IMG/VR virus record: IMGVR_UViG_3300036939_000030
Coordinates: 1-32,765 of that record
Length of the DNA stretch: 32,765 nucleotides
Direction: 5' to 3' (one strand)
DNA from: a virus
The notes below the pieces were generated by a model. The model was given only the letters and a program-made list of their open reading frames with translations. It made no database searches and was not told where the DNA came from. This document shows positions 1,554-27,612 of the stretch, piece by piece (position 1 is the stretch's first letter; every line of letters begins with the position of its first letter). The position numbers and the translations under genes were made by a program.

Positions 1554-1726
1554 CCCAACCCGAACAGCTCGAGCTAAAGTTTTTGGTCGAGCGTTCGGAA
1601 CTCAGGCAGGCCGAATTTCCCTGGCGTTGTTTGGTGAATCACCAATCTAGCGAGCGAGTCCAGACGTCTGGACAACGCCGCCGCCGCCGATCGCGGCCAG
1701 CTGCGCAGGTTGACTCGACCAGGTAG
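1550..1726 (+). CDS. Small hypothetical protein, 58 aa
   Basis: An unrecognised small protein whose ATG overlaps the terminase stop as ATGA, the same coupling used elsewhere in this genome. The N-terminal half is ordinary (MTQPEQLELKF). The C-terminal third is low-complexity and very basic, with five arginines in a row. The 16-bp palindrome GTCCAGACGTCTGGAC lies inside the frame and is read as Val-Gln-Thr-Ser-Gly, which suggests the palindrome inserted into or grew from the end of an older gene. No function can be given. It could be a real accessory head gene or an incidental frame. Confidence 0.45.
   Translation: MTQPEQLELKFLVERSELRQAEFPWRCLVNHQSSERVQTSGQRRRRRSRPAAQVDSTR
1658..1673 (+). repeat. 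16-bp palindrome GTCCAGACGTCTGGAC, copy 1 of 6
   Basis: A perfect inverted repeat with left flank GCGA and right flank A. It lies inside the 58-aa frame just after the terminase gene. The centre is GACGTC. Confidence 0.95.
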
Positions 1727-1795
1727 GCGACTACCGACCAGGCGGCCCGCATCTTTCATCGAAAGCACTGCGCGGCCGCTCTTTTTTTGCCCTGG

Positions 1796-1801
1796 TTGAC
1801 T
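1796..1801 (+). promoter_or_regulatory. TTGACA-type element (TTGACT) before gpW-like gene
   Basis: TTGACT ends 14 nt before the ATG at 1816 and supports that ATG over the GTG at 1810. Confidence 0.5.
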
Positions 1802-1815
1802 GGCCCCGCGTGGCA

Positions 1816-2085
1816 ATGACAACCGACGAACTAGCGCAAACGCTGGCAATTTGTGCCGAAGCGGACCTGGTAAACCTCGAGGAGCTCCGCGCCTTGAGCC
1901 TGGCGAAGATGCTTTCGGGTGGTGGTGAAGTGACGTTTACCATTTCGGCCACCTTGAACGGCAGCCAGGCGGCCCAGGAGTGCAGGCGCAGTGCCGACGA
2001 GCTGCTCGCGATCGTGCAACGCGCGATCGACCACAAAAACGGCGCAGTCGTGCCGGTTACCTACGCGGACTTTTCCGGCCTCTAA
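1816..2085 (+). CDS. Head-tail joining protein, gpW-like (89 aa)
   Basis: A candidate for the small protein that stabilises filled heads and forms part of the tail-attachment site. It has an N-terminal helical segment (DELAQTLAICAEADL), a beta-like stretch (EVTFTISATL) and a C-terminal helix (CRRSADELLAIVQRA), matching the helix/strand/helix plan of gpW, although it is longer than the 68 aa of lambda gpW. Its place between terminase and portal is exactly the lambda A-W-B order. The ATG at 1816 is preferred over the GTG at 1810 because TTGACT lies 14 nt upstream of it. The assignment rests mainly on position and size. Confidence 0.5.
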   Translation: MTTDELAQTLAICAEADLVNLEELRALSLAKMLSGGGEVTFTISATLNGSQAAQECRRSADELLAIVQRAIDHKNGAVVPVTYADFSGL

Positions 2086-2088
2086 CCT

Positions 2089-3660
2089 ATGGGCTTTTTC
2101 TCTTCGATAAAGGCCGCGGCCGCTGGCGCCGTTTTGGGTTTCCGCGCCTCTTACGGCAGTTACAGCGACGCCACGACGCACAACAGCCCCGACCGCGGCA
2201 CGGTTTACTATTACCCGCCGAGCGACACCCGTTTCCACATTTCCAGCTATACGCGCCGCGAGGTTTCCCGCCGCGTCGAATGGCTTTTCCAGAACTTCGC
2301 ACCCTTGAAAGAGGGAGCGCGAGGCATTGCTCGCCACACAGTCGGAAAGGGAATTTCCCTGCAGATCAATTCGACCGATGAGGAGTGGAACGAGCTAGCC
2401 GAGGCCGACTGCGAAACCTATTTCCTCAGTGCAAACAGGTTCGACAGATCCGGAAAGCGGAACTTTTACGAGGCGCAGTTTTTCGCGGTTTTCGCCCGGG
2501 TGAAGGTTGGCGAATTCCTGGCCAGCTTCGCAGAAAACCCGCGATGGAATGGCGAACCGTGCGTGCAAATTTGGGATTCGAACGAGATCGAGACGCCGCC
2601 CGACCGGGAAACCGACGCCTACACCGTCGACGGTGTAAGGCTCGACGAAGACCACGCCGCAGTTGAGTATTTCGCGCGCTCGCTTGGCGGCACTTACAAG
2701 GGGATTCCCGCCTCCGAAATGATGCATTGGTATTACGCCGATGCCGTAAACCAGCCGCGCGGAATTTCGGAATTTGCGCAGGCAGTGGCGGCCTTTCAAG
2801 ACGTGCGGGAAGCGGTAAATATCACCACCAAAACCGCCAAGCAAAACACCGCGATTGGCTTACACATTAAGAAGCTGGCCCGAAAAGGCCAGATGGGTGG
2901 CGTTTCCAAGATCGAGGCCGAGGCCAAGCGGCTTGGCCAGGCCGCATCGGGAGAACCGGCCGCACCTGGTACCCACGACAAGAACGAAAAGGCATACGAG
3001 AAAATCGCAGGTGGTGGCGCGATCATTTACACGGACGAAGACGGCGACGCCAAGTTTTTGACCCCGCAAAGCCCGACGCCGCTTCTCGAGCCGTTCGTTA
3101 CCAAAGTGCTAATGCGGAACGGGTTTTCGTCGATTGGAATGTCGGCCGAATTTTTCTGGAGTTTGACCGACCTAAACGGCACTTCGGTTAGGCTCGTAAA
3201 TCAAAAGGCCGAGGCAACTTTCGATTGGTTCGGAGACGGTCTAATCGGCCGCTTTTGCACGCCCGTTGCAGTGCGTTACATCCTGCACCGCATCGAAACC
3301 GGCAAACTCAGGCGCCCGACCGATCCAAACTGGATTACAAAACTGCACTGGCAGCGGCCCGCCCGGATTTCTCTCGACCGTGGCGACGCTCAAATCGAGG
3401 TAACGCAGCTGCAGAACGGAATCGAGACGCTGGCCAATATCAACGACAAGCGCGGCCGCGGCTGGCGCCCGCAGGTGAAACAATGGTTTCGCGAATTCGC
3501 CTACGCTTACAAATGCGCGGCCGAGGCTGGCGTGCCTTGGGCCCTCAAATTCTGGCGTGCCAACATGCCTGGCGCAGCTGGCGCAGATCCGACCGCAGAC
3601 CCGGCCGAAACCGACGCGACCGAATCGGCCAAGGGTGACACGGAGAAAAAGGCAGCATGA
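2089..3660 (+). CDS. Phage portal protein, lambda family (523 aa)
   Basis: Forms the dodecameric ring at one capsid vertex through which DNA enters and leaves. It has the lambda-gpB family layout: a short N-terminus, then RRVEWLFQNFAPLKEGARGI followed by HTVGKG (the conserved start of the portal fold), a central region with ASEMMHWYYADAVNQPRGIS and FQDVREAVNITTK, and a C-terminal region rich in aromatic and basic residues. Its length fits the family (about 500-550 aa). The ATG follows the previous stop by three bases with no Shine-Dalgarno sequence and no TTGACA element, so translational coupling is likely. Its stop overlaps the next start as ATGA. The acidic, Asp/Thr-rich tail looks disordered. 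Confidence 0.93.
   Translation: MGFFSSIKAAAAGAVLGFRASYGSYSDATTHNSPDRGTVYYYPPSDTRFHISSYTRREVSRRVEWLFQNFAPLKEGARGIARHTVGKGISLQINSTDEEWNELAEADCETYFLSANRFDRSGKRNFYEAQFFAVFARVKVGEFLASFAENPRWNGEPCVQIWDSNEIETPPDRETDAYTVDGVRLDEDHAAVEYFARSLGGTYKGIPASEMMHWYYADAVNQPRGISEFAQAVAAFQDVREAVNITTKTAKQNTAIGLHIKKLARKGQMGGVSKIEAEAKRLGQAASGEPAAPGTHDKNEKAYEKIAGGGAIIYTDEDGDAKFLTPQSPTPLLEPFVTKVLMRNGFSSIGMSAEFFWSLTDLNGTSVRLVNQKAEATFDWFGDGLIGRFCTPVAVRYILHRIETGKLRRPTDPNWITKLHWQRPARISLDRGDAQIEVTQLQNGIETLANINDKRGRGWRPQVKQWFREFAYAYKCAAEAGVPWALKFWRANMPGAAGADPTADPAETDATESAKGDTEKKAA
3635..3640 (+). promoter_or_regulatory. TTGACA-type element (GTGACA) before 61-aa gene
   Basis: GTGACA lies inside the portal coding sequence and ends 16 nt before the ATG at 3657. 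Confidence 0.4.
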
Positions 3661-3842
3661 GCCCACAAAATCGCCAGGCAATCGCAACGCTGCTTTTCGT
3701 GGCGTTGCTCCTTTCGAACAAGCTCCGCGCGGCCGTAATCGCCAAGCGGAAGCGCGAGAACTTCGAGCAGCTGCAGCGCGGAATCGCACGGCTAAACGAG
3801 ATCCGCGACCGCCGCGGCCAGCAGTGGCCAAGCTGGAACTGA
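3657..3842 (+). CDS. Small predicted membrane protein (61 aa)
   Basis: Its ATG overlaps the portal stop (ATGA). Residues about 8-27 form one hydrophobic segment (AIATLLFVALLLSNKLRAAV), followed by a very basic and polar helix (AKRKRENFEQLQRGIARLNE). The product is therefore probably a single-pass membrane or amphipathic protein. Its position between portal and prohead protease is where lambda-like phages often encode small, poorly conserved proteins. Function is unknown; a holin is possible by topology but not by context. Its TGA stop doubles as part of the CTGACA element before the protease gene. Confidence 0.6.
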   Translation: MSPQNRQAIATLLFVALLLSNKLRAAVIAKRKRENFEQLQRGIARLNEIRDRRGQQWPSWN

Positions 3843-3844
3843 CA
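3839..3844 (+). promoter_or_regulatory. TTGACA-type element (CTGACA) before protease gene
   Basis: CTGACA contains the upstream gene's TGA stop and ends 17 nt before the ATG at 3862. Confidence 0.45.
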
Positions 3845-3861
3845 CGGCACGCCCCGCCGAT

Positions 3862-4716
3862 ATGCGTTTCGACCAATTCTACACCAAACTTTTCTGCAGG
3901 CCTCTTTGCCTCGAGGCAGGCGCCCGGATTTCCTACGAGCAAACGCTGCTCGCGATGATGAAAAGCGCGCAGGCGCCCGACCTGGCCGCGGCGCAGGCCG
4001 CTTTCGAGCTCCGGAAGAGTGACCCAACACGAGCCGCCAAGCGTGCCGAGGGAATTCTCGAAATGCGCGGCAGCGACACGGCAATCGTGCACATCGACGG
4101 CGCAATCGATAAGCACCTTTCCGACCTCGATTTGCTGTGCATGAACGCAACCGATTTGCGCGACGTCGACAAGGCCCTCGCGAAGATCGATGGCGACAGC
4201 AAAATCGAAAACGTGCTGCTCGCGTTCAACAGCCCAGGCGGAGGCATTACCGGAGTGCCGGAGACGGCCGCGAGAATCGCGGACCTGGCCACCCGCAAAA
4301 ACGTTTTCAGCTACACCGAAACGCAGCTCTGCAGCGCGGCCTATTGGTTGGCCAGTGGCACCGACCAGATTTTCGGCACGGCATCGGCGCAGGTTGGCTC
4401 GATTGGCGTTTACCTGGCTTTGATCGATGAAAGCCGCGCCCTCGACGCAATGGGAATTCGCGTCGAGACGATCCGCGACGGGAAGCACAAGGCAGCTGGC
4501 GCCAGCTGGAAACCGTTGTCGGAGGAAGACAAGGCGCACTTTCAAAAACAGGTTTCGCAGATTGGCACGATGTTCCGCGGCGCCGTGAACCAGAAGCGGC
4601 CCGCCGTATCGGTCGACACCATGCAAGGGCAGAGCTTTTTCGGCCGCGAGGCTCTAACGGCTGGCCTGGTCGACGGCATCGTTTCCGACCTCTCCGGAGC
4701 TCTGCGCATGTTCTAA
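3862..4716 (+). CDS. Prohead protease, S49 (SppA/lambda C-like) family (284 aa)
   Basis: A serine protease expected to mature the prohead by cutting scaffold and portal. It shows the S49 landmarks: AIVHIDGAI (first core strand), an oxyanion-type loop NSPGGGITG, the nucleophile segment TQLCSAAYWLAS with catalytic Ser about residue 158, ASAQVGSIGVYLALID, and the general-base Lys in DGKHKAAG (K208 or K210). The C-terminal EALTAGLVDGI block is also typical. Length fits a stand-alone phage S49 protease. Unlike lambda C/Nu3, the scaffold is not nested in frame; a separate coiled-coil gene follows after a terminator. The GTCC palindrome begins directly after the stop codon. Confidence 0.92.
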   Translation: MRFDQFYTKLFCRPLCLEAGARISYEQTLLAMMKSAQAPDLAAAQAAFELRKSDPTRAAKRAEGILEMRGSDTAIVHIDGAIDKHLSDLDLLCMNATDLRDVDKALAKIDGDSKIENVLLAFNSPGGGITGVPETAARIADLATRKNVFSYTETQLCSAAYWLASGTDQIFGTASAQVGSIGVYLALIDESRALDAMGIRVETIRDGKHKAAGASWKPLSEEDKAHFQKQVSQIGTMFRGAVNQKRPAVSVDTMQGQSFFGREALTAGLVDGIVSDLSGALRMF

Positions 4717-4732
4717 GTCCAGACGTCTGGAC
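4717..4732 (+). repeat. 16-bp palindrome GTCCAGACGTCTGGAC, copy 2 of 6
   Basis: A perfect copy beginning immediately after the protease TAA and 8 nt before a strong terminator hairpin. Flanks are A on the left and T on the right; this is the only copy without A on the right. Confidence 0.95.
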
Positions 4733-4740
4733 TACACCCC

Positions 4741-4777
4741 ACCGCCTGCAGGTTGCACCACCTGCAGGCGGTTTTTT
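4741..4777 (+). terminator. Rho-independent terminator after protease gene
   Basis: A perfect 13-bp stem, ACCGCCTGCAGGT paired with ACCTGCAGGCGGT, with a 6-nt loop (TGCACC) and then six T. It sits in the middle of the head module, between protease and scaffold genes, so the scaffold/capsid genes probably have their own transcription start or need antitermination. Confidence 0.9.
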
Positions 4778-4809
4778 GTGCCCTGGCTGCAGATCCGCGC
4801 CGCTGGTTG

Positions 4810-4815
4810 TTGACA
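4810..4815 (+). promoter_or_regulatory. TTGACA element before scaffold gene
   Basis: A perfect TTGACA ending 15 nt before the ATG at 4831, in the short leader that follows the terminator. Confidence 0.5.
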
Positions 4816-4830
4816 CGACCGCGCGAGGAA

Positions 4831-5430
4831 ATGCGTTACAGTTCAAACCTCGCTTACTTCGCCGCTATCACAGCGCGCCGGATGCTCGCCCCGGATAAAG
4901 GCGATGGCACCGGAGCAGCTGCAGGCAATGGCGGCACCACCGACGAAACCCCGAAGGCTGGCCCGACTCAAAAGGCGAAGCTCGAGGCCGCAGAAAAGCG
5001 CGTTTCCGAGCTCGAGGGACAGCTCGCAGCAAACGGCGATTTGCAGGCCAAGCTCGACGCAGCAAACGGGAAGATCGAGGCCGCAGAGAAGGCAAAGGCA
5101 GACGCCGAAAGCGCACTCGAAACAGCCAAGGCGACTATTTCCGGCCTCGAGGGTGAAAAGGCGCAGCTTTCCGAGCAGGTAACCAAGCTGCAAGGCCAGG
5201 TTGGCCAAACGTCCGACCGAGCAGGGGAGCAGTTGAGCGCCGCAGGCCTCAACCCTGGCACACCAAAGCAGGAGCCAGCAGCAGCCGCCAACAGCGACGC
5301 GGACCTAGTCGCGACTTGGGAAAATTACCTCAAGGCAGGCCCCATCGATGCCGCCGAAATGCGCGCCACGCTTGGCGCAAAACTCGACGCCGCGGCCGTG
5401 GCTTACGACCGCGCCCAACTCTCCGCCTAA
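4831..5430 (+). CDS. Scaffold-like coiled-coil protein (199 aa)
   Basis: A probable internal scaffold directing capsid assembly. After a short N-terminus and a Gly/Thr-rich linker, residues about 50-135 form a long coiled coil dominated by Ala, Glu and Lys (KLEAAEKRVSELEGQL and similar). A Pro/Ala-rich linker and a C-terminal helical segment (DLVATWENYLKAG...LDAAAVAYDRAQL) follow. Its position directly before the major capsid gene and after the prohead protease is the classic scaffold slot. The ATG at 4831 is chosen because TTGACA lies 15 nt upstream; earlier start codons would run through the terminator. No catalytic motif is seen. Confidence 0.75.
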   Translation: MRYSSNLAYFAAITARRMLAPDKGDGTGAAAGNGGTTDETPKAGPTQKAKLEAAEKRVSELEGQLAANGDLQAKLDAANGKIEAAEKAKADAESALETAKATISGLEGEKAQLSEQVTKLQGQVGQTSDRAGEQLSAAGLNPGTPKQEPAAAANSDADLVATWENYLKAGPIDAAEMRATLGAKLDAAAVAYDRAQLSA

Positions 5431-5496
5431 CGCGCAGACACGCCCCAAACGACCACCACACCACCCGCAATTTTTCACCACCACCACTAGAAAAAA
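5431..5496 (+). promoter_or_regulatory. G-poor, unstructured leader of the major capsid gene
   Basis: A 66-nt spacer that is C/A-rich and nearly free of G in its last 50 nt, ending with seven A just before ATG. It has neither a Shine-Dalgarno sequence nor a TTGACA element. Such a leader should stay single-stranded, which could allow efficient Shine-Dalgarno-independent initiation of the most abundant virion protein. Confidence 0.5.
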
Positions 5497-6408
5497 ATGG
5501 CACTCTCAGCAGCAGCAGCCCTTCGGCTCGACCGCGTATTGCAAACCGGCCTAACGGCCCTTTCCCGCCGCCTGGCACCGCTTGCGATGTTCTCGCACGT
5601 GTACCAGGCCGAGGAGCTGCAGCGCGGAAAGGCGATTCACGTTCCTTTTGTCCCGTTGGAAGGCCTGGCCTCCCGTGACTGGAACGCAAACAACGGTTAC
5701 GAAGACGGCGATTTCAACGTCGAGGAGATCCCGGTTACGATCTCACACCGGAAATATCAGCCGTTCAGCTACACCAGCGAGCAGCTGGTCGGCCTCTCTC
5801 CGGCAATTCTGGAACAGGCGATGGTGCAGAAGGCCGACAAGCTGGCCAGCGACATTATCACGCACGTTATGGGCGCCATCACGGTGGCGAACTACGGCGC
5901 GCATGTAATGGAAATCGACGGCTCGGTTTTCGACACAAACGACATTATCGACCTGGACGGCGCAATGACCGTGCAGAACTGGCCAGGCGTCGGCCGCGGC
6001 TTGCTGCTCGACTCCACTTTCGCGACCACCGCGAAGAAAGACGAGGCACTCAAGGACCAGAGCCGCAGCGGCTCCACGCAGACACTCCGCGAGGGTGTAA
6101 TCGGCCGCGTTGGCGGTTTCGACGTGGCAGAAACTCCCGGCCTGCCTGAAAACGGCGAGCGCCTGAAAGGCTTTGCCTGCCTCCCTTACGCTCTTTTGCT
6201 GGCGTCCGCTCCGATCGAGCCCGCGCCTGCAGTAAAGGCGCAGCTTTTCGATTATCGGAAGGTAGTCGACAAGAACACCGGCCTTGCTCTGGTTTACCGC
6301 CATTGGGCAGACCCGAACAGCGACAAGGAAAAGCGCGTTATCGAAGTTTGCTACGGTTTCGCGAAGGGTGACGCGGCACAGCTGAAGCGCATCACGCGCC
6401 CGGCCTAA
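5497..6408 (+). CDS. Major capsid protein (303 aa)
   Basis: The probable main shell protein with an HK97-type fold. The call rests on position right after the scaffold gene, length, and sequence character: an N-terminal helix (LRLDRVLQTGL), a stretch of short strands (KAIHVPFVPL, FNVEEIPVTISHRKYQPFSYT), an alpha-helical spine-like region (SPAILEQAMVQKADKLASDI), the segment GRGLLLDSTFATT, and a C-terminal beta region (NTGLALVYRHW...KRVIEVCYGFAKGDA). It is somewhat reminiscent of P22-type coat proteins, but subfamily cannot be fixed by eye. The unusual A-rich leader fits high expression. No cleavable N-terminal delta domain is obvious, so scaffolding probably depends on the upstream coiled-coil protein. 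Confidence 0.82.
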   Translation: MALSAAAALRLDRVLQTGLTALSRRLAPLAMFSHVYQAEELQRGKAIHVPFVPLEGLASRDWNANNGYEDGDFNVEEIPVTISHRKYQPFSYTSEQLVGLSPAILEQAMVQKADKLASDIITHVMGAITVANYGAHVMEIDGSVFDTNDIIDLDGAMTVQNWPGVGRGLLLDSTFATTAKKDEALKDQSRSGSTQTLREGVIGRVGGFDVAETPGLPENGERLKGFACLPYALLLASAPIEPAPAVKAQLFDYRKVVDKNTGLALVYRHWADPNSDKEKRVIEVCYGFAKGDAAQLKRITRPA

Positions 6409-6419
6409 TCCTCCTGGCT

Positions 6420-6959
6420 ATGCTGCAGGTAATCACAGTCGGCCGGAAGCATGGCGAAACGGGTTTCGCCTTGCTGGCTGACTCGAGCGTAAACGCAGGC
6501 GCACAGCTCGCAGAGTTTAAGCGGCTGGCTGCCAGCCGTACAAACGACGAGCTCGCAGAGCTGCAGATTTGGCACAGCAACAGTGGCGTTGCAAAGCAGG
6601 TGCGATTTCGCCCTGCCAACCCGGAGGCCCTCGAGGCCTCCGCGGCCGCCGCTGCCGAGCGCGAGCTCGAGCTGCAGAAAGAGGAGCGGCGCCGCCAAGA
6701 CGCCCGCGCGTCGGTTTATATCGACCAGGTAAACCAGATCGACCGGCTAACCAAGGCCCTGGCAGATGCCGAGGCCAAGCTCGAGGCAGCAAACAAGCAG
6801 CTCGCAGAGCAGGAAAAGGCAGCTGCAGCCGCGATCGAAAAGGCAGCCACAGCCGCGACTCAAAAAGCGCAGGTTGACGCGAAAGCGAAGGGAGCGAAGG
6901 CCGCGCAGACGCAGAAAGGCGACGCAGCGACCGCCAACGCAAACACGCAGCAGCAGTAA
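6420..6959 (+). CDS. Coiled-coil virion-associated protein (179 aa), unknown
   Basis: Not recognised. The first 70 residues look like a small folded domain (MLQVITVGRKHGETGFALLA). The rest is a long charged coiled coil (ASVYIDQVNQIDRLTKALAD, AEAKLEAANKQLAEQEK) ending in an Ala/Lys/Thr/Gln-rich low-complexity tail. Placed just after the capsid gene, it could be a capsid-decorating or head-associated protein, or a second scaffold-like factor. Start ATG lies 11 nt after the capsid stop with no Shine-Dalgarno sequence. Confidence 0.7.
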   Translation: MLQVITVGRKHGETGFALLADSSVNAGAQLAEFKRLAASRTNDELAELQIWHSNSGVAKQVRFRPANPEALEASAAAAAERELELQKEERRRQDARASVYIDQVNQIDRLTKALADAEAKLEAANKQLAEQEKAAAAAIEKAATAATQKAQVDAKAKGAKAAQTQKGDAATANANTQQQ

Positions 6960-6969
6960 AACTCAGCAA

Positions 6970-7037: not shown

Positions 7038-7055
7038 CCAAGTTTTCAAATCCCC

Positions 7056-8591: not shown

Positions 8592-8601
8592 CCTGGCGCC
8601 C

Positions 8602-8624: not shown

Positions 8625-8658
8625 GCGCAGCTGTTTAACGCTTGGGAATGGTGACCCG

Positions 8659-8664: not shown

Positions 8665-8679
8665 CCCGCCGCGGCCTAT

Positions 8680-11124: not shown

Positions 11125-13446
11125 ATGTCCTCCATCGTAACAAATATCGTGCTCGGAGTTGGCGGTTTCCTTTCGCCACTGCGCACCGCGTCAAACGAGC
11201 TCCTGCAGTTTCAAGGGCTCTTTATGGGACTGCAAACGGCCTTTACTGGCGTTATGGCCCTTGGCGACGCGGCCGCGGCCGTCCTCTCGAAACCTTTCGA
11301 GCTCGCAGGCGACGCCCTCGAAAAAGCGGGGAACATGCAGCAGCTCGAAACGAGCTTTAAGATTCTAACCGGGAACGCTGAGAAAGGCCTGGCCCTGGTC
11401 GGAGAGCTGCAGCAGCTCGGAGCCTCGACCCAGTTCGAAGTTTTGGAAGACCTGGCACCGGCCGGGAAATCGCTGCTCGCGTTCGGTGAATCGGCCGCGA
11501 CGATTCCCGACACGTTGCGCCGGATTGGTGACGTCGCAAGCGGAGTAAACACCGACCTAAACGGCCTGGCGTCCATCTATGGCAAGGCCCGGATTGCTGG
11601 CGTCCTGATGACCGAGGATCTAAACCAGCTGACGGAAAGAGGCATTCCCGTAATCGGTGAATTTGCCAAGCAGCTTGGCGTTGCGGAAAGCCAGGTAAAA
11701 GGCCTGGCGGAAACTGGCGCCCTCACGTTCCCGATGCTCGAGCGTGCTTTCGTTTCGCTCACTTCCGAGGGTGGCAAATTCTCCGGAATGATGGAGGCCC
11801 AAAGCAAAACTTGGAACGGCCTAAAATCGAATTTCGCAGACAGCTTTTCGCAGGTGCAGGTTGCATTCGCAAAACCGCTAATCGAAGGCCTTTCGGAGCC
11901 ATTCGCAGAGCTCATCGGAGAACTCGGAGGCATTACACCCGCGGCCGCCTCGTTTGGCCGCGTAATTGGCGGCCTGGTTGGCGATACGATCGAGCTCGCG
12001 CAGGTGGTCGGCAGCCTGGTTTCGGCGGCCAAGTCCTTTGCGCCAGGCCTGGCCGGAATTGCCCTTGGTTTCGGCCTGGTAAAAATGAGCGGAAGCGCGG
12101 CAACGATGGCATTGCGCAACCAGCTAACGGCCCTGGCCGTTGCGATCCGCTCGCCAGGCGAGGCCCTGGTCGGCCTCCGGATGCAATGGCAGGCGCAGCT
12201 CGCAGCGATGCAGACGCAGACCACAGGCACGGCCGCGGCAATGAGAACGGCCCTGGCTGGCGTCGGCATTGGCGTTGCACTCTCCGCCGTGACTTATGGC
12301 TTTTCCGCGATCATGGACCGCGCCAACAGCCTAAAGAGCGGCGCCGCGGCAATGTCCGACATAGGCGACGCTTTCGAAAAGCAGGCACTCGGAAACCTTC
12401 GCAAAATGGGCGAAGTAGGAAACGAGCGCGAGCGCGTCGCGATGCTCGAGCAGCTCAACGGCCAGCTCGACGAAATGCGCGAGAAGCAAAGCCGCGTCGA
12501 CCGCGATTTCGAGCACTTGGGAGAGAACGCGCAGGCCGACCAGATGCGCGCCGATATCCGCGAGCAGCTCAACCAGCAAGCTGGCTTGCTCGAGATCCAG
12601 ATTAACCGGACGCGCGCCCTTACGGCCGACGAAATGCGGCGCGCATCGGCAACCAGGAAAACGGCCGAGGCCACAAAGGCACAGCTCGAGGCCCTCGAGG
12701 CTCTCGAGAAGGCATTCGCCAACCTGGCCAAAGCGAAGGAAAAGGCCGCTTTCGACGCACTCACACCGGACCAGCAGCGCGCCAAGCTGGTTAAAGATAG
12801 CGGCCTTGGCACCGTCGAGCGCATCGACTCCGAAATCGGAAAGGCGCAGCGCAAAGAGGCAGACGGCCGACTCAAACCAGAGGAGGCCGCGCGAGCTTCG
12901 AAGCTGGTCGAGATCCGCAGCCAGCTGCTCGACGTCGAAAAGCAGATCGCAGCCGAGCGCGAGAGATCCGCGGAGAAACAGCGCGACGAGGCCGAGAAGC
13001 TGGCAGAGGCAAACCGGAGCGCGCAGAAGTTCCAGCGCGAGGGAGCTCTCGAGATTCTCAAATTGACGGCCAAGGCTCGTGGAGACGTCGACCGCGTGGC
13101 AATGATCGAGCGCCAGCAACGTTACGACGAGCTTTTCGGCCAGGCACAAGGCGCCAACCTTGGAGCCATGCAGGCCGACAGCTACGCGCGCCAGATGCTC
13201 GAGGCCGAGGAGCGCGCCAAGCTGGCCGACGAGGAAAAACCGACCTATTCCCGCACGGTTGCAGATGCCGACCGCCGCGTCGGCTTGGGTGGCGCCGCTG
13301 CAGGTGGCGATTTAATCCTGAAAGAGAACCAGAGGCAGACGCGCGAGCTAGTGCTGCAAACGGGTTACCTCGACGAGATCCGCCGCAACCTGGCCAAGCC
13401 GCAGGCACCGGCCCCGCGGCCCGTGGCGGTATTCTCGCGCGGCTAG
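11125..13446 (+). CDS. Tail tape measure protein (773 aa)
   Basis: Sets tail length and occupies the tube lumen. The N-terminal 230 residues carry the tape-measure core domain: NMQQLETSFKILTGNAEKG, VLEDLAPAGKSLLAFG, VNTDLNGLASIYGKARIAGV, TEDLNQLTERGIPVI. Next come hydrophobic, Gly/Ala-rich segments (ASFGRVIGGLVGDTIELAQ, LAGIALGFGLVKMSGSAAT, GVGIGVALSAVTYGFSAIMD) that could cross membranes on DNA injection. From residue 430 on it is a long charged coiled coil. Using the rule of about 1.5 angstrom per residue, a tail near 115 nm is expected. No lysozyme or peptidase insert was seen. The 16-bp palindrome starts at the last base of its TAG stop. Confidence 0.93.
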   Translation: MSSIVTNIVLGVGGFLSPLRTASNELLQFQGLFMGLQTAFTGVMALGDAAAAVLSKPFELAGDALEKAGNMQQLETSFKILTGNAEKGLALVGELQQLGASTQFEVLEDLAPAGKSLLAFGESAATIPDTLRRIGDVASGVNTDLNGLASIYGKARIAGVLMTEDLNQLTERGIPVIGEFAKQLGVAESQVKGLAETGALTFPMLERAFVSLTSEGGKFSGMMEAQSKTWNGLKSNFADSFSQVQVAFAKPLIEGLSEPFAELIGELGGITPAAASFGRVIGGLVGDTIELAQVVGSLVSAAKSFAPGLAGIALGFGLVKMSGSAATMALRNQLTALAVAIRSPGEALVGLRMQWQAQLAAMQTQTTGTAAAMRTALAGVGIGVALSAVTYGFSAIMDRANSLKSGAAAMSDIGDAFEKQALGNLRKMGEVGNERERVAMLEQLNGQLDEMREKQSRVDRDFEHLGENAQADQMRADIREQLNQQAGLLEIQINRTRALTADEMRRASATRKTAEATKAQLEALEALEKAFANLAKAKEKAAFDALTPDQQRAKLVKDSGLGTVERIDSEIGKAQRKEADGRLKPEEAARASKLVEIRSQLLDVEKQIAAERERSAEKQRDEAEKLAEANRSAQKFQREGALEILKLTAKARGDVDRVAMIERQQRYDELFGQAQGANLGAMQADSYARQMLEAEERAKLADEEKPTYSRTVADADRRVGLGGAAAGGDLILKENQRQTRELVLQTGYLDEIRRNLAKPQAPAPRPVAVFSRG

Positions 13447-13461
13447 TCCAGACGTCTGGAC
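13446..13461 (+). repeat. 16-bp palindrome GTCCAGACGTCTGGAC, copy 3 of 6
   Basis: A perfect copy whose first G is the last base of the tape-measure TAG stop. Flanked by A on both sides. Confidence 0.95.
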
Positions 13462-14318: not shown

Positions 14319-14975
14319 ATGCTTTTCGACCCTCTTTTCGTAAGGGTAGGCCAGGCGATAACCGAAAAGCTCTGGAACGCCCTACTTGCCCGCGTGGCGG
14401 CCGTGCGGCTCCTGCCTGGCCCGGGAATCCGCCTGCAATACACGGAAAACGGAACGATCGTTTCCGCGATCGACACCGGCCGCGGAGGCGCGCCCGTGCA
14501 TCATTTCCGGGTGACCCTGGCAGGCGACCGCCTCACGATCCGCCCTGGCTTGGTAAACGGTATCGAGCCAAAAATCGGCACGACCCCGCTTTCGGGAGAC
14601 AAGAAAACGCCGCAACCTTCGCTCGACTTCCGGAGCCCGAAGCTAGACGGCGAGCGCCGCGGATACGTTGCGCTAGAAATCCAGTGCGGCCCAGATTGGC
14701 AAATTACCAATGTGCAGGCGGTACAGGTGGCAGCTTGGGAAACCGAAGACGGGAAACCGGCAGAGCAGGGGAGCGGCCAGCCGAGCGCCATTTCTGGCGT
14801 GCCTGGCTTGCTCAATCGGCGCGTGCGTTACCCGCTGGCCCTCATCCAGCCCGACCAGGCGGGAAACCTCGAGGTTGTGCAGATCGTGCACTTTCACCTT
14901 CGCCACCACGTAAAGCCGCGCGACCTGGCCAGCAACGTTGCGCGCCATTTCTTTTCGATTGGAGGCGTCGCGTAA
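14319..14975 (+). CDS. Tail protein, paralogue A (218 aa)
   Basis: Begins four bases after the previous stop, with GAGGAG upstream as one of the few Shine-Dalgarno-like sequences in the window. Residues about 10-50 (GQAITEKLWNALLARVAAVR, then LPGPGIRLQYTENGTIVSAI) closely parallel the N-terminus of the next gene, and both continue with a (R/V)xxxRPGxVxG motif. The two genes therefore look like an old tandem duplication. The rest is beta-rich (RGYVALEIQCGPDWQITNVQ). Context suggests a tail-tip or fibre-base component. Its TAA overlaps the next ATG. Confidence 0.7.
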   Translation: MLFDPLFVRVGQAITEKLWNALLARVAAVRLLPGPGIRLQYTENGTIVSAIDTGRGGAPVHHFRVTLAGDRLTIRPGLVNGIEPKIGTTPLSGDKKTPQPSLDFRSPKLDGERRGYVALEIQCGPDWQITNVQAVQVAAWETEDGKPAEQGSGQPSAISGVPGLLNRRVRYPLALIQPDQAGNLEVVQIVHFHLRHHVKPRDLASNVARHFFSIGGVA

Positions 14976-16057
14976 TGGTTACCGAGCTGCCGACGATCGC
15001 GGCCCGCGTCTGGAATTCGCAGGTTTCCAAGATCCGCCGCGCGCGAGCGGTTACCGGCCTTGGCGTGCGCCTCTGGTACACGGCCAAAGGCATTATCGTT
15101 TCCCTGGCAGGCGGCCGAGAGGAGTTTCGCCACCCGTGGCAGATGCGCGGAGAGTGGCAGCCGAGCGCCGCAGATCCGGAGCGACTCGAGTTTCGCGTTT
15201 TCGTGCGGCCTGGCTTTGTGACCGGCCGCGACGTCGTAATCGATATGCAAGGCCGCGAGTCCAGACGTCTGGACAGCAAGAGCGGCCAAGCGATCGAGCG
15301 GCAACACGTGCGGCTTACAGATCCCGAGCCGCCTTTCCTGGTTGTCGGCACCTGGCGCAATCCCATTGCGGCCGCTGGCATTACTGCCACCCTCGAGGGT
15401 GAGCTCGTAGCACTGCCAGGCGAAGGCTACCCGGAATTTTTCGCCCGCCGCGGAGTGCGGCCCGCCTCGCCAGGCGGCAACGCCACCGAGCCAGGCACGA
15501 TCGAGGCCCCATTCGACGCGCAGCGCACGCGCGAGCTCCGCGCGGCCGACGTCGTGCTCGTAACGCCGCGCACGGCTACGGCAACGCAGGTGCAGCCGCT
15601 CGACCCCTTGAGCCAGTCGGCAACGATCGAGCTTTCGAGCGTGTTCCTAAATGATGCAGTGCGCGGCCAGCCGCGGCACCGCCTGGTTTGCGTGCCAAAG
15701 TTTGTGCCCCCTCGAGAACCTTCTGCAGTCGAGCGGCTGCTCGGAACCTACACGGAGCCGCAAACCGACGAGCTCAGAATCGGCACCGTTTGGATGGTTT
15801 CACCACCAGACGCCGGAGCCGACGCGGTACCCGATGACACCTGGCAGGCCTATTTTCAAAACGTGGTTTTCTGGAATCTAAACCACGCCACCCGGAACGA
15901 AGTGCCCGACGCGCCGCAGCCGCCAACCCGCCTGCAAACTGGCATCCCTTGGGCAGACTTTTTCGGCAACCTGCAGCTGCAGCAATCAAACGACATTCTC
16001 GCGCAGGTTGGCGCCTACCTGGCAGGCGGAGACTTTAGCGGAATTTATTGGACGTGA
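14975..16057 (+). CDS. Tail protein, paralogue B (360 aa)
   Basis: The start is the ATG in the TAATG overlap. Its N-terminus (IAARVWNSQVSKIRRARAV, LGVRLWYTAKGIIVSLA, FRVFVRPGFVTG) is homologous by eye to paralogue A. The C-terminal 200 residues are extra. The 16-bp palindrome lies inside the gene at codons about 95-100 in a different frame from the other coding copies, encoding Ser-Arg-Arg-Leu-Asp. A virion tail-tip role is inferred from position. The stop overlaps the next GTG start. Confidence 0.7.
   Translation: MVTELPTIAARVWNSQVSKIRRARAVTGLGVRLWYTAKGIIVSLAGGREEFRHPWQMRGEWQPSAADPERLEFRVFVRPGFVTGRDVVIDMQGRESRRLDSKSGQAIERQHVRLTDPEPPFLVVGTWRNPIAAAGITATLEGELVALPGEGYPEFFARRGVRPASPGGNATEPGTIEAPFDAQRTRELRAADVVLVTPRTATATQVQPLDPLSQSATIELSSVFLNDAVRGQPRHRLVCVPKFVPPREPSAVERLLGTYTEPQTDELRIGTVWMVSPPDAGADAVPDDTWQAYFQNVVFWNLNHATRNEVPDAPQPPTRLQTGIPWADFFGNLQLQQSNDILAQVGAYLAGGDFSGIYWT
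15259..15274 (+). repeat. 16-bp palindrome GTCCAGACGTCTGGAC, copy 4 of 6
   Basis: A perfect copy in mid-gene of tail paralogue B, with GCGA on the left and A on the right. It is the only copy far from a gene boundary. Confidence 0.95.
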
Positions 16058-19979: not shown

Positions 19980-21383
<1,404 letters not shown>

Positions 21384-21397
21384 TTTTGGATCCAAAA
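21384..21397 (+). repeat. 14-bp palindrome TTTTGGATCCAAAA, copy 1 of 2
   Basis: A perfect AT-flanked palindrome directly after the previous TAG stop and overlapping the TTG start of the next frame. The second copy lies at 29318 before the zinc-ribbon gene. Confidence 0.9.
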
Positions 21398-22647: not shown

Positions 22648-22649
22648 CA
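22644..22649 (+). promoter_or_regulatory. TTGACA element before membrane/coiled-coil gene
   Basis: A perfect TTGACA that includes the glycosyltransferase TGA stop and ends 15 nt before the ATG at 22665. Confidence 0.5.
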
Positions 22650-22664
22650 GCGCCGCGGGTGGCG

Positions 22665-23090
22665 ATGAATCCACCCACCGCCGCCGAAGTCCAGACGTCT
22701 GGACAAACCCCAACCCTGCCAAAAAAGCTGCGCGCCGTTGTCGAGATATCGGCCGCAATCCTTGGCGCCCTGGCCGTATTGGCTACCGGGTGCCTCTGGC
22801 TTTTCTCGTTTATCAGCGACGCCGCAATCAGACGGGAAAGCCTGCCAAAGCAGGTGGCAGAACTTGCCGAGGTTCAAAAAGTGAACACTGGCAAAATTGG
22901 CGAGCTCGAGAAAAAGGCCGAGGCCTCGCTTATCGATCGAACGAACCTGCACAGAGAGGTTGCGGAAAGCCGCGCGGCTCTCAGCGGCTCAATCAAAGAC
23001 CTGGCCGACGCACTTTCGAGGCGCCTCGACCGGCTCGACGATCGCACCGAGCGCATAGGCGACCGCGTCGGAGTGGAGCGCGCAAGGTGA
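22665..23090 (+). CDS. Membrane-anchored coiled-coil protein, lysis or virion candidate (141 aa)
   Basis: After a polar N-terminus, residues about 25-50 form one transmembrane helix (VVEISAAILGALAVLATGCL, WLFSFIS). The remainder is a long coiled coil (LPKQVAELAEVQKVNTGKIG, ADALSRRLDRLDDRTERIG). The topology suits a holin-like or spanin-like protein or a membrane-anchored virion factor, but it lies several genes before the endolysin. Codons 9-14 include the 16-bp palindrome, read Val-Gln-Thr-Ser-Gly. The start is fixed by TTGACA 15 nt upstream. Its TGA stop is part of the next GTGACA element. Confidence 0.65.
   Translation: MNPPTAAEVQTSGQTPTLPKKLRAVVEISAAILGALAVLATGCLWLFSFISDAAIRRESLPKQVAELAEVQKVNTGKIGELEKKAEASLIDRTNLHREVAESRAALSGSIKDLADALSRRLDRLDDRTERIGDRVGVERAR
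22689..22704 (+). repeat. 16-bp palindrome GTCCAGACGTCTGGAC, copy 5 of 6
   Basis: A perfect copy 24 nt into the membrane/coiled-coil gene, read in frame as VQTSG. Flanked by A on both sides. Confidence 0.95.
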
Positions 23091-23092
23091 CA
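23087..23092 (+). promoter_or_regulatory. TTGACA-type element (GTGACA) before tailspike gene
   Basis: GTGACA includes the upstream TGA stop and ends 16 nt before the ATG at 23109. Confidence 0.45.
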
Positions 23093-23108
23093 CACGCCGC
23101 CGCGTGTT

Positions 23109-24527
23109 ATGGCATTACCGACAACGTCAGTTTGGGAGATTCGAAACACCGGCCACTTTTCAAACGGCGCCGGTTTCAATCCTTCGCGCGCAGGTGGCAT
23201 CGATCGCAGCCAGCAAGACGAGCCGCACGTCGTCATTGATGGCGCCACCATCACGGCCACCATTCACACCGCGCCCGCGCAGCTCAACTTGACCGGCTAC
23301 ACGGTTATTTTGGGCGACGTCGGAAATTTTGTTCAGATCCTCACCGGAGCGAGCACAAACGGATTTTTCGAAATAACGGCCGTCGATATCCCAAACAATC
23401 GTTGGGTGCTCGACCGCACAGTCGGCACCGCAGGCGCCACAATCACTGGCCGGATGGGAGGCGCCGCCAATGGCCCGCAACGCATTTTCTTATCTGCAGG
23501 CGCAGGCCACCGCTATTGGTGGAAATCGGGAACCTACCAGCAGAACAACGGAAACAGCGGCGCAGAATTCGGCGCCACACTTGGCACCTTTGCCACGTCG
23601 GCCGAACCAATTTTCGTGCGTGGCTACAAGACCACCCGCGGAGACGATGCCGAGCGGCCGCTTGTCCTGATTTCTGGCGCCGGTTACGCGACGGCCTACT
23701 CTGTGCGCGTCGGCCAAGGGTGGCAGGTTCGAGGAATTGAGATCGACGCAAACGCCCTTTCCGGAATCATTGCGTTTTCGGCCTCTGGCGTGCGATCGAC
23801 GGCAATTGATTGCATCGCGCGCGGCTGCGATGGCGCGAACGGGAAAGGTTTCGAGACGATCAACACCGAGTGTTGCGCCGCTTACGATTGCTCGACCGGA
23901 GGCCAAGGCGGAACACACGAACGGCTATTCGTGCACAACAACGTTGGCGGCTCGATTCTAGGCACCGGCCTTGCCAGCCCCGTTGGCGTCGACAGGTGCA
24001 TTTTCGTTAACATCATTAACCCGATTACAGGCGCACCGGCCCGGGTGACAAATTGCGTGGCCTACAAGACCACAAACGGTTTCACGGCTGGCAGTAGTTA
24101 CACCCATTTCGACAACTGCATTTCGCACACGTCGACGCGCGGCTTTTACGTCGCTTCGAACACCGGCCACGCCCGGTTTACCAATTGCTTTGCCTACGCT
24201 TGCACGACCGCGTTTTCGAATCTGAATGGCACCGCGCCAGGTGGCACGGCTGACAGTTTCGAGAGCAGCTGCGCGACGTTGACGGCCGACCCTTTCGAGA
24301 ACGTCGCAATTTCAGATTTCCGACTCAACAACACGGCTGGCGGAGGCGCCACCTGCAAAAACCAGTCGCACCCCGTTCCCATCATTCACAACAACGGAGC
24401 GCCAACTTTGCTGGCGTCCTCGTTTGACGCTGGCGCCCTGCAGTCGGCTGCAGTCGGAGGAGGAGGAGGCACCACAAACCCGCTGCCAGGCATCGGCTCC
24501 GCAATCATCCAAGGCGGACTTTTCTAA
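23109..24527 (+). CDS. Right-handed beta-helix tailspike-like protein (472 aa)
   Basis: A probable receptor-binding or polysaccharide-degrading spike. From about residue 185 to 390 the protein is a series of short rungs of the form x-x-G-I-x-I-D, x-x-C-x-A-x-x-C, F-x-N-C-x-A (WQVRGIEIDANALSG, STAIDCIARGC, VDRCIFVNIINPI, THFDNCISHTSTRGF, ARFTNCFAYACTTAFS), the pattern of pectate-lyase-type parallel beta-helices. The N-terminal 150 residues would be the attachment and head-binding part; the C-terminus ends in a Gly/Pro-rich segment. The abundance of Cys and Asn rungs is notable. Substrate unknown. Confidence 0.82.
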   Translation: MALPTTSVWEIRNTGHFSNGAGFNPSRAGGIDRSQQDEPHVVIDGATITATIHTAPAQLNLTGYTVILGDVGNFVQILTGASTNGFFEITAVDIPNNRWVLDRTVGTAGATITGRMGGAANGPQRIFLSAGAGHRYWWKSGTYQQNNGNSGAEFGATLGTFATSAEPIFVRGYKTTRGDDAERPLVLISGAGYATAYSVRVGQGWQVRGIEIDANALSGIIAFSASGVRSTAIDCIARGCDGANGKGFETINTECCAAYDCSTGGQGGTHERLFVHNNVGGSILGTGLASPVGVDRCIFVNIINPITGAPARVTNCVAYKTTNGFTAGSSYTHFDNCISHTSTRGFYVASNTGHARFTNCFAYACTTAFSNLNGTAPGGTADSFESSCATLTADPFENVAISDFRLNNTAGGGATCKNQSHPVPIIHNNGAPTLLASSFDAGALQSAAVGGGGGTTNPLPGIGSAIIQGGLF

Positions 24528-24541
24528 ATCACCCCGAATCT

Positions 24542-25966
24542 ATGTTCGCAAAAATCAACCAGGCCATTTCTGGCATTTTCACCACGACCAGCCCGACCAC
24601 AGGCGCCACCGTTGACGCAGACGGAGCGCCCACCGTTGCAGCGTATCGAAACGGCACGCTCGACGCTGGTTTCGTTGTCACCGTTGCGCAGGTTGGAATC
24701 GCTGGCGTTTATCGGTTTTCCGGCTCAGTGCCGAACACCTACACGCAGCCCGATTGCGTCGAGTTTGTGGCAGCTGCCACCGTTGGCGGAATCAGCAGCC
24801 GCGCGAGCGTCGGCCGCCTGCAGGTGGTTTCCCGCCTAGCTAGTGAGCTGCCACTTGCAACCGAGATCCGGAGCGACCTCGACGCGAGCAGCACCAAGCT
24901 AGCGAACCTCGACGCGACAGTTTCCAGCCGCCTGGCGGCCTCGAGCTACACGGCGCCCACTGCAGCACCGACCGCCGCGCAGATCCGCGCGGAAATGGAC
25001 AGCTCGAGCACCAAGCTAGCGAACCTCGACGCGACAATTTCGAGCCGACTCCCGCACGCCGGTTACACCACGCCACCGACCGCGGCCGCGATCCGCTCGG
25101 AAATGGACAACGGAAGCACCAAGCTAGCACGGCTCGACGTCGTGCTTTCCACGCGCCTGGCGGCCTCCGATTACACGGCACCCACTGCAGCACCGACCGC
25201 CGCGCAGATCCGCGCGGAAATGGACAGCTCGAGCACCAAGCTAGCGAACCTCGACGCGACAGTTTCGAGCCGCCTCGCTGCCTCAAACTACAACGCCGCA
25301 CCGACCGCCGCAGCAGTCGCGGCCGCGGTAGATTCGACCCTCACAGCCGCGCACGGTTTGGGCAGCTGGCAGGCAGGCGAAACCGCAGGCCTTACCGGCC
25401 CGCGTGCAATCACGTTGCGGTTTCAGGATGCAAACGGCGACCCCGTGCCGAGCGTCGACTTTGTGGTTTCTGGCGTTGGCGTCGGCCGCAGCGGCGCCGA
25501 TGGCGTGGCCGAGTTTGGAATCGTCGACGGCTCTTTCGAAGTGATCGCACGGCCGACAGGGGGAACCCTTTTCGAACCGGCCGCCCTGGTCGTTTCTGGC
25601 GAAGACCTCGAGCAAATCGTTGCAGGCACCACGCGGATTATTCCGATGCCAGCGACGCCCGGAACCTGCAAAGTTTCCGGCCAGCTGGTAACGATCGACG
25701 GCAAACCGGCTGCAGGTGCAAAAGTGCAATTCGAATTGCACCCGCAAAAGGCCATCGGAGGCGAACAGCTCGTGCACGGCCGCCGTGTGATCGCGACGGC
25801 AGACGGCAACGGATTTCTCGAAATCGACTTGCTGCGCAATGACGTGCTCGAGACGCCGGGAACGTTCTACCGGGTGCGCTCAGAGGGTGCAGTTTTGGCA
25901 GGGGAGCGCGTCGAGTTTCTTTCGCCAACGTTTGACCTGGCGCAGCTCGCCAACGCACCGGCCTAG
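24542..25966 (+). CDS. Repeat-containing phage tail fibre protein (474 aa)
   Basis: The N-terminal domain (VDADGAPTVAAYRNGTLDAG, VGIAGVYRFSGSVPNTYT) resembles an Ig-like fibre base. Residues 106-255 contain four repeats of 36-40 aa built on AAQIRAEMDSSSTKLANLD, then ATVSSRLAAS and a TAPTAAPT linker, a pattern often seen in phage fibres as helical hairpins. The C-terminal half has two carboxypeptidase-regulatory-like beta domains (ITLRFQDANGDPVPSVDFVV; CKVSGQLVTIDGKPAAGAKV). A 225-bp-spaced, 81-bp exact DNA repeat lies inside. It is the last fibre gene before the lysis cassette. Confidence 0.75.
   Translation: MFAKINQAISGIFTTTSPTTGATVDADGAPTVAAYRNGTLDAGFVVTVAQVGIAGVYRFSGSVPNTYTQPDCVEFVAAATVGGISSRASVGRLQVVSRLASELPLATEIRSDLDASSTKLANLDATVSSRLAASSYTAPTAAPTAAQIRAEMDSSSTKLANLDATISSRLPHAGYTTPPTAAAIRSEMDNGSTKLARLDVVLSTRLAASDYTAPTAAPTAAQIRAEMDSSSTKLANLDATVSSRLAASNYNAAPTAAAVAAAVDSTLTAAHGLGSWQAGETAGLTGPRAITLRFQDANGDPVPSVDFVVSGVGVGRSGADGVAEFGIVDGSFEVIARPTGGTLFEPAALVVSGEDLEQIVAGTTRIIPMPATPGTCKVSGQLVTIDGKPAAGAKVQFELHPQKAIGGEQLVHGRRVIATADGNGFLEIDLLRNDVLETPGTFYRVRSEGAVLAGERVEFLSPTFDLAQLANAPA
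24857..25312 (+). repeat. In-frame tandem repeats within fibre gene
   Basis: Four coding units of about 108-120 bp. Bases 24956-25036 and 25181-25261 are identical over 81 bp, so recombination could delete or duplicate exactly 75 codons without shifting the frame. Confidence 0.9.
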
Positions 25967-25978
25967 CCGATCCGCGTT

Positions 25979-25984
25979 TTGACA
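25979..25984 (+). promoter_or_regulatory. TTGACA element before hydrolase gene
   Basis: A perfect TTGACA ending 17 nt before the ATG at 26002. Its last base opens the hairpin that encloses this start codon. Confidence 0.5.
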
Positions 25985-26018
25985 AGGGGCGGCCTGGCGT
26001 TATGCCAAGCCGCCCTTT
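25984..26018 (+). terminator. Terminator-like hairpin enclosing a start codon
   Basis: AAGGGGCGGCCTGGC pairs with GCCAAGCCGCCCTTT (one G-T pair, one mismatch) around a 5-nt loop GTTAT. The ATG at 26002 begins in the loop. CACTTTTG follows. It could end the fibre transcript, hold the hydrolase start closed, or both. Confidence 0.65.
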
Positions 26019-26667
26019 CACTTTTGAACGTCGCAAAGATGGCGACGGCGATTTCGTGCTTTGCCTAAACGGCATCCACACCAACCCCGCGGCCGACAGC
26101 TGGACCGATCGCGCGGAAGAGTGGTTTTTGCGCCGGACCTCGCACGACGTCGACGCCTACGAATACCACCAAACGGCGATTTTCGGCCGCCTCTTTTCGG
26201 AGAATCGGCACCTTCGAAACGTCGTGCAATTGCTGGCCGAATACATGGCCGCAGGCGGCCCGTTTCGGCTGCACATCCTGGCGCACTCGCGCGGCTGTGA
26301 AATCGCCAGGCGCCTGGTTGTCGAGTGCGGTTTCCGCGTGGAATCGATGCACCTTTTTTCGGCTGCCATCGATCCGGATTTCGGCCGCAACGGCCTTGGC
26401 GCCGCCCTCGAGCGTGGCCAGGTTAACCGCGTGCGGCTCTACACGTCGAAAAGCGATGGCGTGTTGCGTTGGATTGCTGGCGCCTCGCTTGGCCTATATG
26501 GCCGCCTTGGCTACACCGGCCCGCGGAACGTTTGGCCGCACATCGCGCACCGCGTCGAGCAGACGCCCCGCGACACCTACAACCACGGCAGCTGGTTTTC
26601 GCCAGGCAATTTCGAGGAGTCCATGCAGCTGGCCGAGTGGGAAATCGACAACCTGCCAATGCGTTGA
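26002..26667 (+). CDS. Alpha/beta hydrolase, possible lysis esterase (221 aa)
   Basis: A serine hydrolase by motif: FVLCLNGIHTNP is the first core strand with an oxyanion-type loop, FRLHILAHSRGCEIARRLV is the nucleophile elbow with Ser96 (H-S-R-G), Asp152 in SKSDGVLRW and His195 in YNHGSWFS complete a triad in the right order. Next to an endolysin it recalls LysB-type phage esterases that attack the outer envelope, but similarity to that family was not demonstrated; a depolymerase-type role on host surface glycans is also possible. The start codon lies in a hairpin loop and follows TTGACA by 17 nt. The TGA stop forms part of the next TTGACA. Confidence 0.8.
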   Translation: MPSRPFTFERRKDGDGDFVLCLNGIHTNPAADSWTDRAEEWFLRRTSHDVDAYEYHQTAIFGRLFSENRHLRNVVQLLAEYMAAGGPFRLHILAHSRGCEIARRLVVECGFRVESMHLFSAAIDPDFGRNGLGAALERGQVNRVRLYTSKSDGVLRWIAGASLGLYGRLGYTGPRNVWPHIAHRVEQTPRDTYNHGSWFSPGNFEESMQLAEWEIDNLPMR

Positions 26668-26669
26668 CA
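26664..26669 (+). promoter_or_regulatory. TTGACA element before endolysin gene
   Basis: A perfect TTGACA that includes the hydrolase TGA stop and ends 14 nt before the ATG at 26684. Confidence 0.5.
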
Positions 26670-26683
26670 GCCGCGGCCGCGGT

Positions 26684-27376
26684 ATGCAAACGCCCCTCGT
26701 TTTCGACCCCGAAACAGTCAAAAGAATCCAGCGCCGTTGCGGTATGCCCGCGCGCCTGGTCGACGGAGATTTCGGCAAACTCACCTTGGCGGCCGTCGAC
26801 GAAACGCTCGCGAGCGTCGAGCAGTTTCTCGCCAAGCAGATTGGCGTTTCACCAATCAAGGCCGAGGCCGCAAAGCCCCGGCCGCTGGCCACATCGATGG
26901 CCGCGGCAATCGTGCGAAATGCCGAGGAGGAAATCGGCACGAAAGAGCAGGGGGGAAACAATCGCGGAAAGCGTGTTCAGGAATACCAGGCCGCAACCTG
27001 GTTGGAAGGCACCGGCTGGGCATGGTGCGCGGCCTTTGTGTGTTTCGTGCTCCGCGATGCGATCGCAGAGTTTGGCGCGGTACCGTGGAAACGCCCTTTG
27101 ACCGCTGGCGCCTACGATTTCGAAAATTGGGCAAAGCAAAACGCTGCCGCTGGCGTGCAGCTTTTCAAGCCCGCCCGTAAAACGAAAATCAAGGCAGGCG
27201 ACATCGTGGTTTTCAATATCTCGCACATCGGCATTGCGGTTAAAGACCAGGCCAGCGACGGCTCAGTCGAAACCGTGGAAGGCAACACCGGCCCGGAAGG
27301 CGGCCGCGATGGCGACGGAGTGTGGCGGAAAAATCGCCACGTGTCAGAGTTCCGCGCGGTTATCCGCGTGCCATGA
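26684..27376 (+). CDS. CHAP-domain endolysin (230 aa)
   Basis: A cysteine amidase/peptidase that should cut peptidoglycan at lysis. The N-terminal 50 residues (DPETVKRIQRRCGMPARLVD, GDFGKLTLAAVDETL) look like a small peptidoglycan-binding-type domain. The catalytic CHAP core follows: GTGWAWCAAFVCFVL with Cys115, KAGDIVVFNISHIGIAV with His181, and VETVEGNTGPEG with Glu199 and Asn201. No signal peptide is present, so a holin would be needed; the likely membrane partners are the 141-aa protein or an unidentified gene. The start is fixed by TTGACA 14 nt upstream. The stop overlaps the next ATG (ATGA). Confidence 0.9.
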   Translation: MQTPLVFDPETVKRIQRRCGMPARLVDGDFGKLTLAAVDETLASVEQFLAKQIGVSPIKAEAAKPRPLATSMAAAIVRNAEEEIGTKEQGGNNRGKRVQEYQAATWLEGTGWAWCAAFVCFVLRDAIAEFGAVPWKRPLTAGAYDFENWAKQNAAAGVQLFKPARKTKIKAGDIVVFNISHIGIAVKDQASDGSVETVEGNTGPEGGRDGDGVWRKNRHVSEFRAVIRVP

Positions 27377-27612
27377 GTGAACCCCGCGATTTCGAAATCA
27401 CCTACAGCCCCGAGCAGCGCGTCGACCTGGCGCCGCTGCTCGTTTGGCGCAAGCTGCCGCAAGATCCGGAGCAGCTGCAGGCCGAAATCGAGGAGCTGCG
27501 CAGGCTACTGCTCGACCGCGCCCTCGAGCAGTTCCTCGAGCGAGTCCAGACGTCTGGACAGATCGACGCCAAAGCGTGTTTTCGGGTAGGGGAGCCCCTT
27601 ACGAAACCTTAA
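27373..27612 (+). CDS. Small helical protein at end of late operon (79 aa)
   Basis: The start is the ATG overlapping the endolysin stop. The protein has a short beta-like N-terminus (DFEITYSPEQRVDLAPLLVW) and a helix (EQLQAEIEELRRLLLDRALE) that then reads through the 16-bp palindrome as Val-Gln-Thr-Ser-Gly. It has no membrane segment, so it is not a holin or spanin by itself. Its stop overlaps a pair of adjacent palindromes. Function unknown. Confidence 0.6.
   Translation: MSEPRDFEITYSPEQRVDLAPLLVWRKLPQDPEQLQAEIEELRRLLLDRALEQFLERVQTSGQIDAKACFRVGEPLTKP
27544..27559 (+). repeat. 16-bp palindrome GTCCAGACGTCTGGAC, copy 6 of 6
   Basis: A perfect copy in the last third of the 79-aa gene, read in frame as VQTSG, with GCGA on the left and A on the right. 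Confidence 0.95.

Follow-up and report, generated by a model that had tools for sequence, protein, structure and literature searches.

The 32,765-base IMG/VR virus record analysed here in full ('the window') represents part of the genome of a temperate tailed phage, with genes for a terminase, portal, head protease, major head protein, tape measure, endolysin and integrase, and carries six exact copies of a 16-base-pair (bp) perfect palindrome, GTCCAGACGTCTGGAC, whose likely nature is the subject of this account. An earlier, sequence-only reading had singled these copies out, and its basic observations hold: all six lie where it placed them, the chance expectation is of the order that it gave (about 0.00001; we obtain 1.2e-5 from base composition, or 2.7e-6 from a first-order Markov model), and the reading frames bear out two copies at stop codons, three read as VQTSG near a gene start or stop, and one in mid-gene. 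Six copies arise in no shuffle of the window, variants with one to three mismatches are absent from it, and no other 16-bp palindrome occurs twice there.

The first site (1658-1673; none of the six is assigned a strand) falls close to the 3' end of a small open reading frame (ORF), 1550-1726, ~53 bp before its stop and in VQTSGQ frame; the sixth (27544-27559) stands likewise ~53 bp before the stop of ORF 27322-27612, in the same frame, which is also that of the fifth (22689-22704), ~24 bp after the ATG and thus close to the N-terminus of a predicted membrane protein (MNPPTAAEVQTSGQ...). The second (4717-4732) abuts the TAA stop of the head maturation protease gene and is followed by a terminator-like hairpin with a T run, the first G of the third (13446-13461) is the last base of the tape-measure gene's TAG stop, and the fourth (15259-15274) lies mid-gene in ORF 14684-16057, in ESRRLD frame. 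Five of the six are no more than 80 bp from a gene end; of random positions, 24% are as close (P ~0.004, with gene calls made in this analysis and an 80-bp cut picked post hoc, when the sites were already known). The base to the left is A in all six and that to the right A in five, as had been reported; these flanking bases are the whole basis of the accompanying claim that all copies point with transcription. A second palindrome, TTTTGGATCCAAAA, has two copies in the window (21384-21397 and 29318-29331). Both immediately follow TAG or TAA, which for the first copy closes ORF 19980-21383, and are thereby placed much as the main sites are.

Elsewhere in IMG/VR, GTCCAGACGTCTGGAC was found in 23 stretches from 19 records, several of which hold at least two copies plus near variants, as against two single matches for a similar control palindrome (imperfectly matched, having a stop codon in one of its reading frames). 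Two of these phage records, G002 and G005, have three exact copies each, and a third, G007, has two. Among ~85,000 genomes the 16-mer occurs in 65 stretches, scattered save for one metagenome-assembled genome (MAG), G020. Searches with the major head protein, by megablast against cultured phages and in Rfam added little.

The variant TTCCAGACGTCTGGAA, used as a query, brought up G081. This 38.6-kb record is close to G007, itself distantly related to the window, and has seven dispersed KTCCRGACGTCYGGAM-like sites. G081 encodes a 612-amino-acid protein with ParB_N and HTH_ParB domains, a site lying in its last codons; a protein with the same two domains is encoded by G005, the sole match of an early ParB search, and G002 has three ParB-like ORFs. 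The ParB reading, weak on that search, gained its footing from G081. The ParB profile matches solved Spo0J, ParB and Noc chains, and more weakly KorB.

The ParB proteins of five motif-bearing records were then aligned and used to fetch 80 ParB loci (1.27 Mb; G081 among them), a choice in which the sister palindrome described next played no part. In 21 of these loci this sister, GTGCAGACGTCTGCAC, occurs exactly, 30 times in all where 0.0004 copies would be expected; the 16-bp palindrome that ranks second has three copies. Within one mismatch, GTSCAGACGTCTGSAC is present in 43 of 50 whole records, with up to eight per genome and none for the reversed pattern; this is an upper estimate, because the 50 were chosen from among the 80 after the counts had been seen, and the count over all 80 loci is unaffected. 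With one mismatch allowed, the ParB loci have 45 sites within parB, most of which overlap the codons for a conserved SADVCTD motif, and a further 40 outside the gene. Approached from the other side, GTGCAGACGTCTGCAC has at least 120 stretches in IMG/VR, and 80 partial loci fetched with it contain a ParB ORF in 15 cases, with 10 of 87 exact sites inside that ORF, as compared with none in a small and partly redundant control set.

The two palindromes differ at one variable base pair, and this tends to follow the recognition helix of the ParB, a trend drawn from few cases of the second type and uncorrected for common descent. A helix that ends in YAR or YGR goes with the 'G type', TGCAG..CTGCA, and one that ends in YER (G081, L160) or SER (one of the three in G002) with the 'C type', TCCAG..CTGGA; in L159 and L161, also YER, the sites are weaker and keep their right half, CGTCTGGAA, constant. 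In four C-type phages a site, or a weaker form of it, lies within the last 50 bp of parB. Both types match canonical parS in length and central ACGT. The only close pair of C-type sites seen is in G002 (L026, 3194-3250), where 41 bp separate an exact copy from one with a single mismatch.

Similar arrangements are found in cultured phages. Over 39 kb of Variovorax phage VarioGold (OP296522), the G type recurs six times with no more than two mismatches, at 5756, 15561, 21002, 29452, 31899 and 37753; one of these sites falls in parB (product UYD72083.1), and four are no further than 66 bp from the end of an annotated gene. A related family of sites, grouped around GTGCACACGTGTGCAC, is present in Acidovorax phage Aval (OP131589). 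The VarioGold paper, searched as text, mentions the ParB domain but neither palindromes nor inverted repeats; text searches of the open-access literature (subscription papers and preprints lying outside their scope) returned nothing relevant for GTCCAGACGTCTGGAC or GTGCAGACGTCTGCAC.

The right end of the window may bring it into the same group. A RepO-like gene on the plus strand (32338-32763), cut by the window end, matches a homologue in G081 (E 1.2e-5), which is itself matched by the Phage_rep_O profile and runs directly into parB, an order repeated in L161; a ParB-like protein, of the YER helix class, is therefore predicted to be encoded just past the window end. The tyrosine integrase (29515-30876, minus strand) is 38% identical to that of L161 and 33% to those of G081 and L158, all three of which sit beside parB, and G081 also has a homologue of the window's endolysin. 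Between the fifth and sixth sites, ORF 24542-25966 contains four copies of AGCACCAAGCTAGC within 350 bases (24890-25247), a short coding repeat.

Synthesising these findings, we consider it highly probable that the window palindromes are parS-like loading sites for a phage-encoded, ParA-less protein of ParB type. The site itself, its recurrence in ParB-encoding phages, its frequent position within parB and the helix trend support this; the particular function of ParB at the sites, be it condensing, silencing or anti-silencing, is much less certain. 'Partition or anchoring sites' was the closest of the four options offered by the sequence-only reading, supported as regards sites of parS kind and unsupported as regards a partition role, no ParA having been found: a ParA profile built from three seeds had no match in the window, G005, G081, G002, G007, VarioGold, Aval or 79 of the 80 ParB loci, the sole match being in L229, where the ParB helix is of chromosomal type.

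Several points weigh on the other side. Binding of ParB to the sites is inferred from sequence association; the window's own parB would lie outside the sequence, as the record ends first; and in-parB sites in part reflect a conserved protein motif, although those outside parB do not. The choice of the 50 whole records leaned to site-bearing loci. Even at two mismatches L158, with a YER-type ParB, shows no site; the helix rule is broken by G005, where a YAS helix accompanies the C type, and by the second G002 ParB; and independent C-type cases are few. Sites also occur where no ParB of the appropriate kind was found: G006 has degenerate sites and yielded no ParB in 28 kb, and G020 has 11 exact copies, with no phage-type ParB found in it.

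The syntenic relative of the window, G078 (29-63% amino acid identity across terminase and head genes), has no site at up to three mismatches. Absence from relatives at matching places had been named in advance as counting against a functional site, and such absence is what G078 presents; since no ParB was found in G078 either, it does not refute the idea, and the joint absence accords with a link between the sites and ParB. That site positions turn over whilst the sequence stays exact indicates a sequence-specific binder.

We suggest that ParB might bind these palindromes as at parS, load as a cytidine triphosphate (CTP)-dependent clamp and slide outward, such that sites every 2-9 kb could allow clamp coverage of the whole phage genome; placement at gene ends may simply reflect that the sequence is tolerated there. 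Because replication-type genes accompany parB in G081 and VarioGold, a role in the lytic phase is probable, either in organising or condensing replicated DNA or in gene switching of the kind performed by KorB and VirB; partition of a plasmid prophage is unsupported, given that an integrase is present and no ParA was found.

Amongst the alternatives, the sites might be stoperators, at which an immunity repressor would block late-gene transcription in the prophage as in mycobacteriophage L5, an option raised in the sequence-only reading and one that fits the dispersed, gene-boundary placement in a temperate phage and, in the window, the flanking-base bias along transcription. We think this unlikely: the exact palindrome is common to unrelated G005, G002 and G007, which would not be expected to have an immunity repressor in common, the sister site goes together with ParB over many phages and is found inside parB too, and, whereas the L5 stoperator is an asymmetric site bound by a monomeric immunity repressor (PMC9283540), the core in the window is a perfect palindrome and the linked protein is ParB-like.

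A shade less likely again are sites for a host-encoded nucleoid or regulatory DNA-binding protein, used or mimicked by the phage. The case for these comes from G020 (CALEMW01 series, L093-L103), whose 11 exact copies lie mostly at gene ends, with no one-mismatch copy in 4.1 Mb; against it, the 57 genomes listed as G020 relatives have no copy, no other of the ~85,000 genomes has more than two listed copies, and the composition of the window is unlike that of G020 (r 0.35). The 'host-wide iterated palindrome' proposed earlier finds no support in general, a single MAG alone having more than two listed copies. G020 itself has two ParB-type proteins, neither with the phage helix: one is chromosomal-looking, and the other, a ParB-like ORF of 411 amino acids with an HTH_ParB match (L241, 144-1376), adjoins a transposase/integrase-like ORF on a short G020 contig. 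The idea that the 16-mer serves as the chromosomal parS of G020 was set aside: canonical parS is absent from G020, which says little, because most of the genomes listed nearest to it also lack it.

RNA hairpins at gene ends (a 6-bp stem with an ACGU loop) serving mRNA processing, stability or termination are very improbable, for although the 16-mer folds and one copy precedes a terminator, any such palindrome must fold, sites also lie in N-terminal codons, copies in G005 occur on either strand relative to genes, and the sequence class follows a DNA-binding protein family.

Other candidates were set aside. A mobile 16-bp insertion is disfavoured, as one G020 copy lies without insertion in LSRRLD, a conserved-looking stretch of an aldehyde dehydrogenase, and site class follows ParB; a library adapter artefact was rejected because copies respect gene ends and reading frames. 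A MetJ-type operator (AGACGTCT core) was likewise rejected, matches in Rhodanobacter, Pantoea and Buttiauxella being single-copy with no adjoining methionine genes. Several Clostridia MAGs carry the exact 16-mer within a nuclease-like gene, read as PIVQTSGQ, and again ~29 bp past its stop (5892-5907 and 6646-6661 in L041); by eye, this gene looks DUF1016-like, and such a nuclease as binder of the 16-mer is a lead only. Separately, the phage contig L005 has four palindromes of 18-22 bp within 800 bases (1689-2480), sharing central ACGT and differing in their arms: GTGCCGACGTCGGCAC twice, GTGACGACGTCGTCAC and GTCCAGACGTCTGGAC.

Returning to parS-like sites of a phage ParB, the nearest known counterparts are chromosomal ParB-parS and Noc-NBS, in which, too, the site is an uninterrupted 16-bp palindrome centred on ACGT and present in multiple copies, one of them in or beside parB, and the protein has ParB_N and HTH_ParB domains. 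The phage sites differ in being genome-wide rather than near the origin, no ParA was found, and their arms are unlike canonical parS, TGTTTCACGTGAAACA, with which the window palindrome has only length and central ACGT in common. Phages of N15 type also have dispersed centromeres, with ParB-type sites spread across the genome; N15, however, is a linear plasmid prophage with SopA/SopB, whereas the present case has an integrase and yielded no ParA. In plasmid RK2, KorB-OB likewise pairs a ParB relative with many operators on one mobile element, and KorB achieves long-range silencing as a CTP clamp (PMC11790492), although the operator sequence differs, the element is a plasmid, and KorB there has KorA as its partner. 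VirB of Shigella, which is ParB-like and takes no part in partition, loads in a CTP-dependent manner at its specific site, virS (PMC10770331), but is an anti-silencer at promoters with no phage-wide site set; together the two illustrate that ParB relatives are able to silence or activate genes.

ParB-like proteins are widespread in phages and prophages, and a divergent group consists nearly entirely of orphans without a ParA-binding motif, their roles being open (PMC12704722); the passages of that survey consulted here name no DNA target for them. It is possible, and we put this forward tentatively, that many integrating temperate phages have genome-wide parS-like sites from which an orphan ParB-CTP clamp coats the phage chromosome during infection in a role other than partition; such a clamp may condense and sort replicated DNA for packaging, counter silencing, or shield the DNA from host defence. 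The palindromes described here, GTGCAGACGTCTGCAC for one large group and GTCCAGACGTCTGGAC / TTCCAGACGTCTGGAA for another, are candidate DNA targets for this widespread and uncharacterised family, and would open phage ParB to direct tests, as well as providing natural variants for studying how ParB specificity changes.
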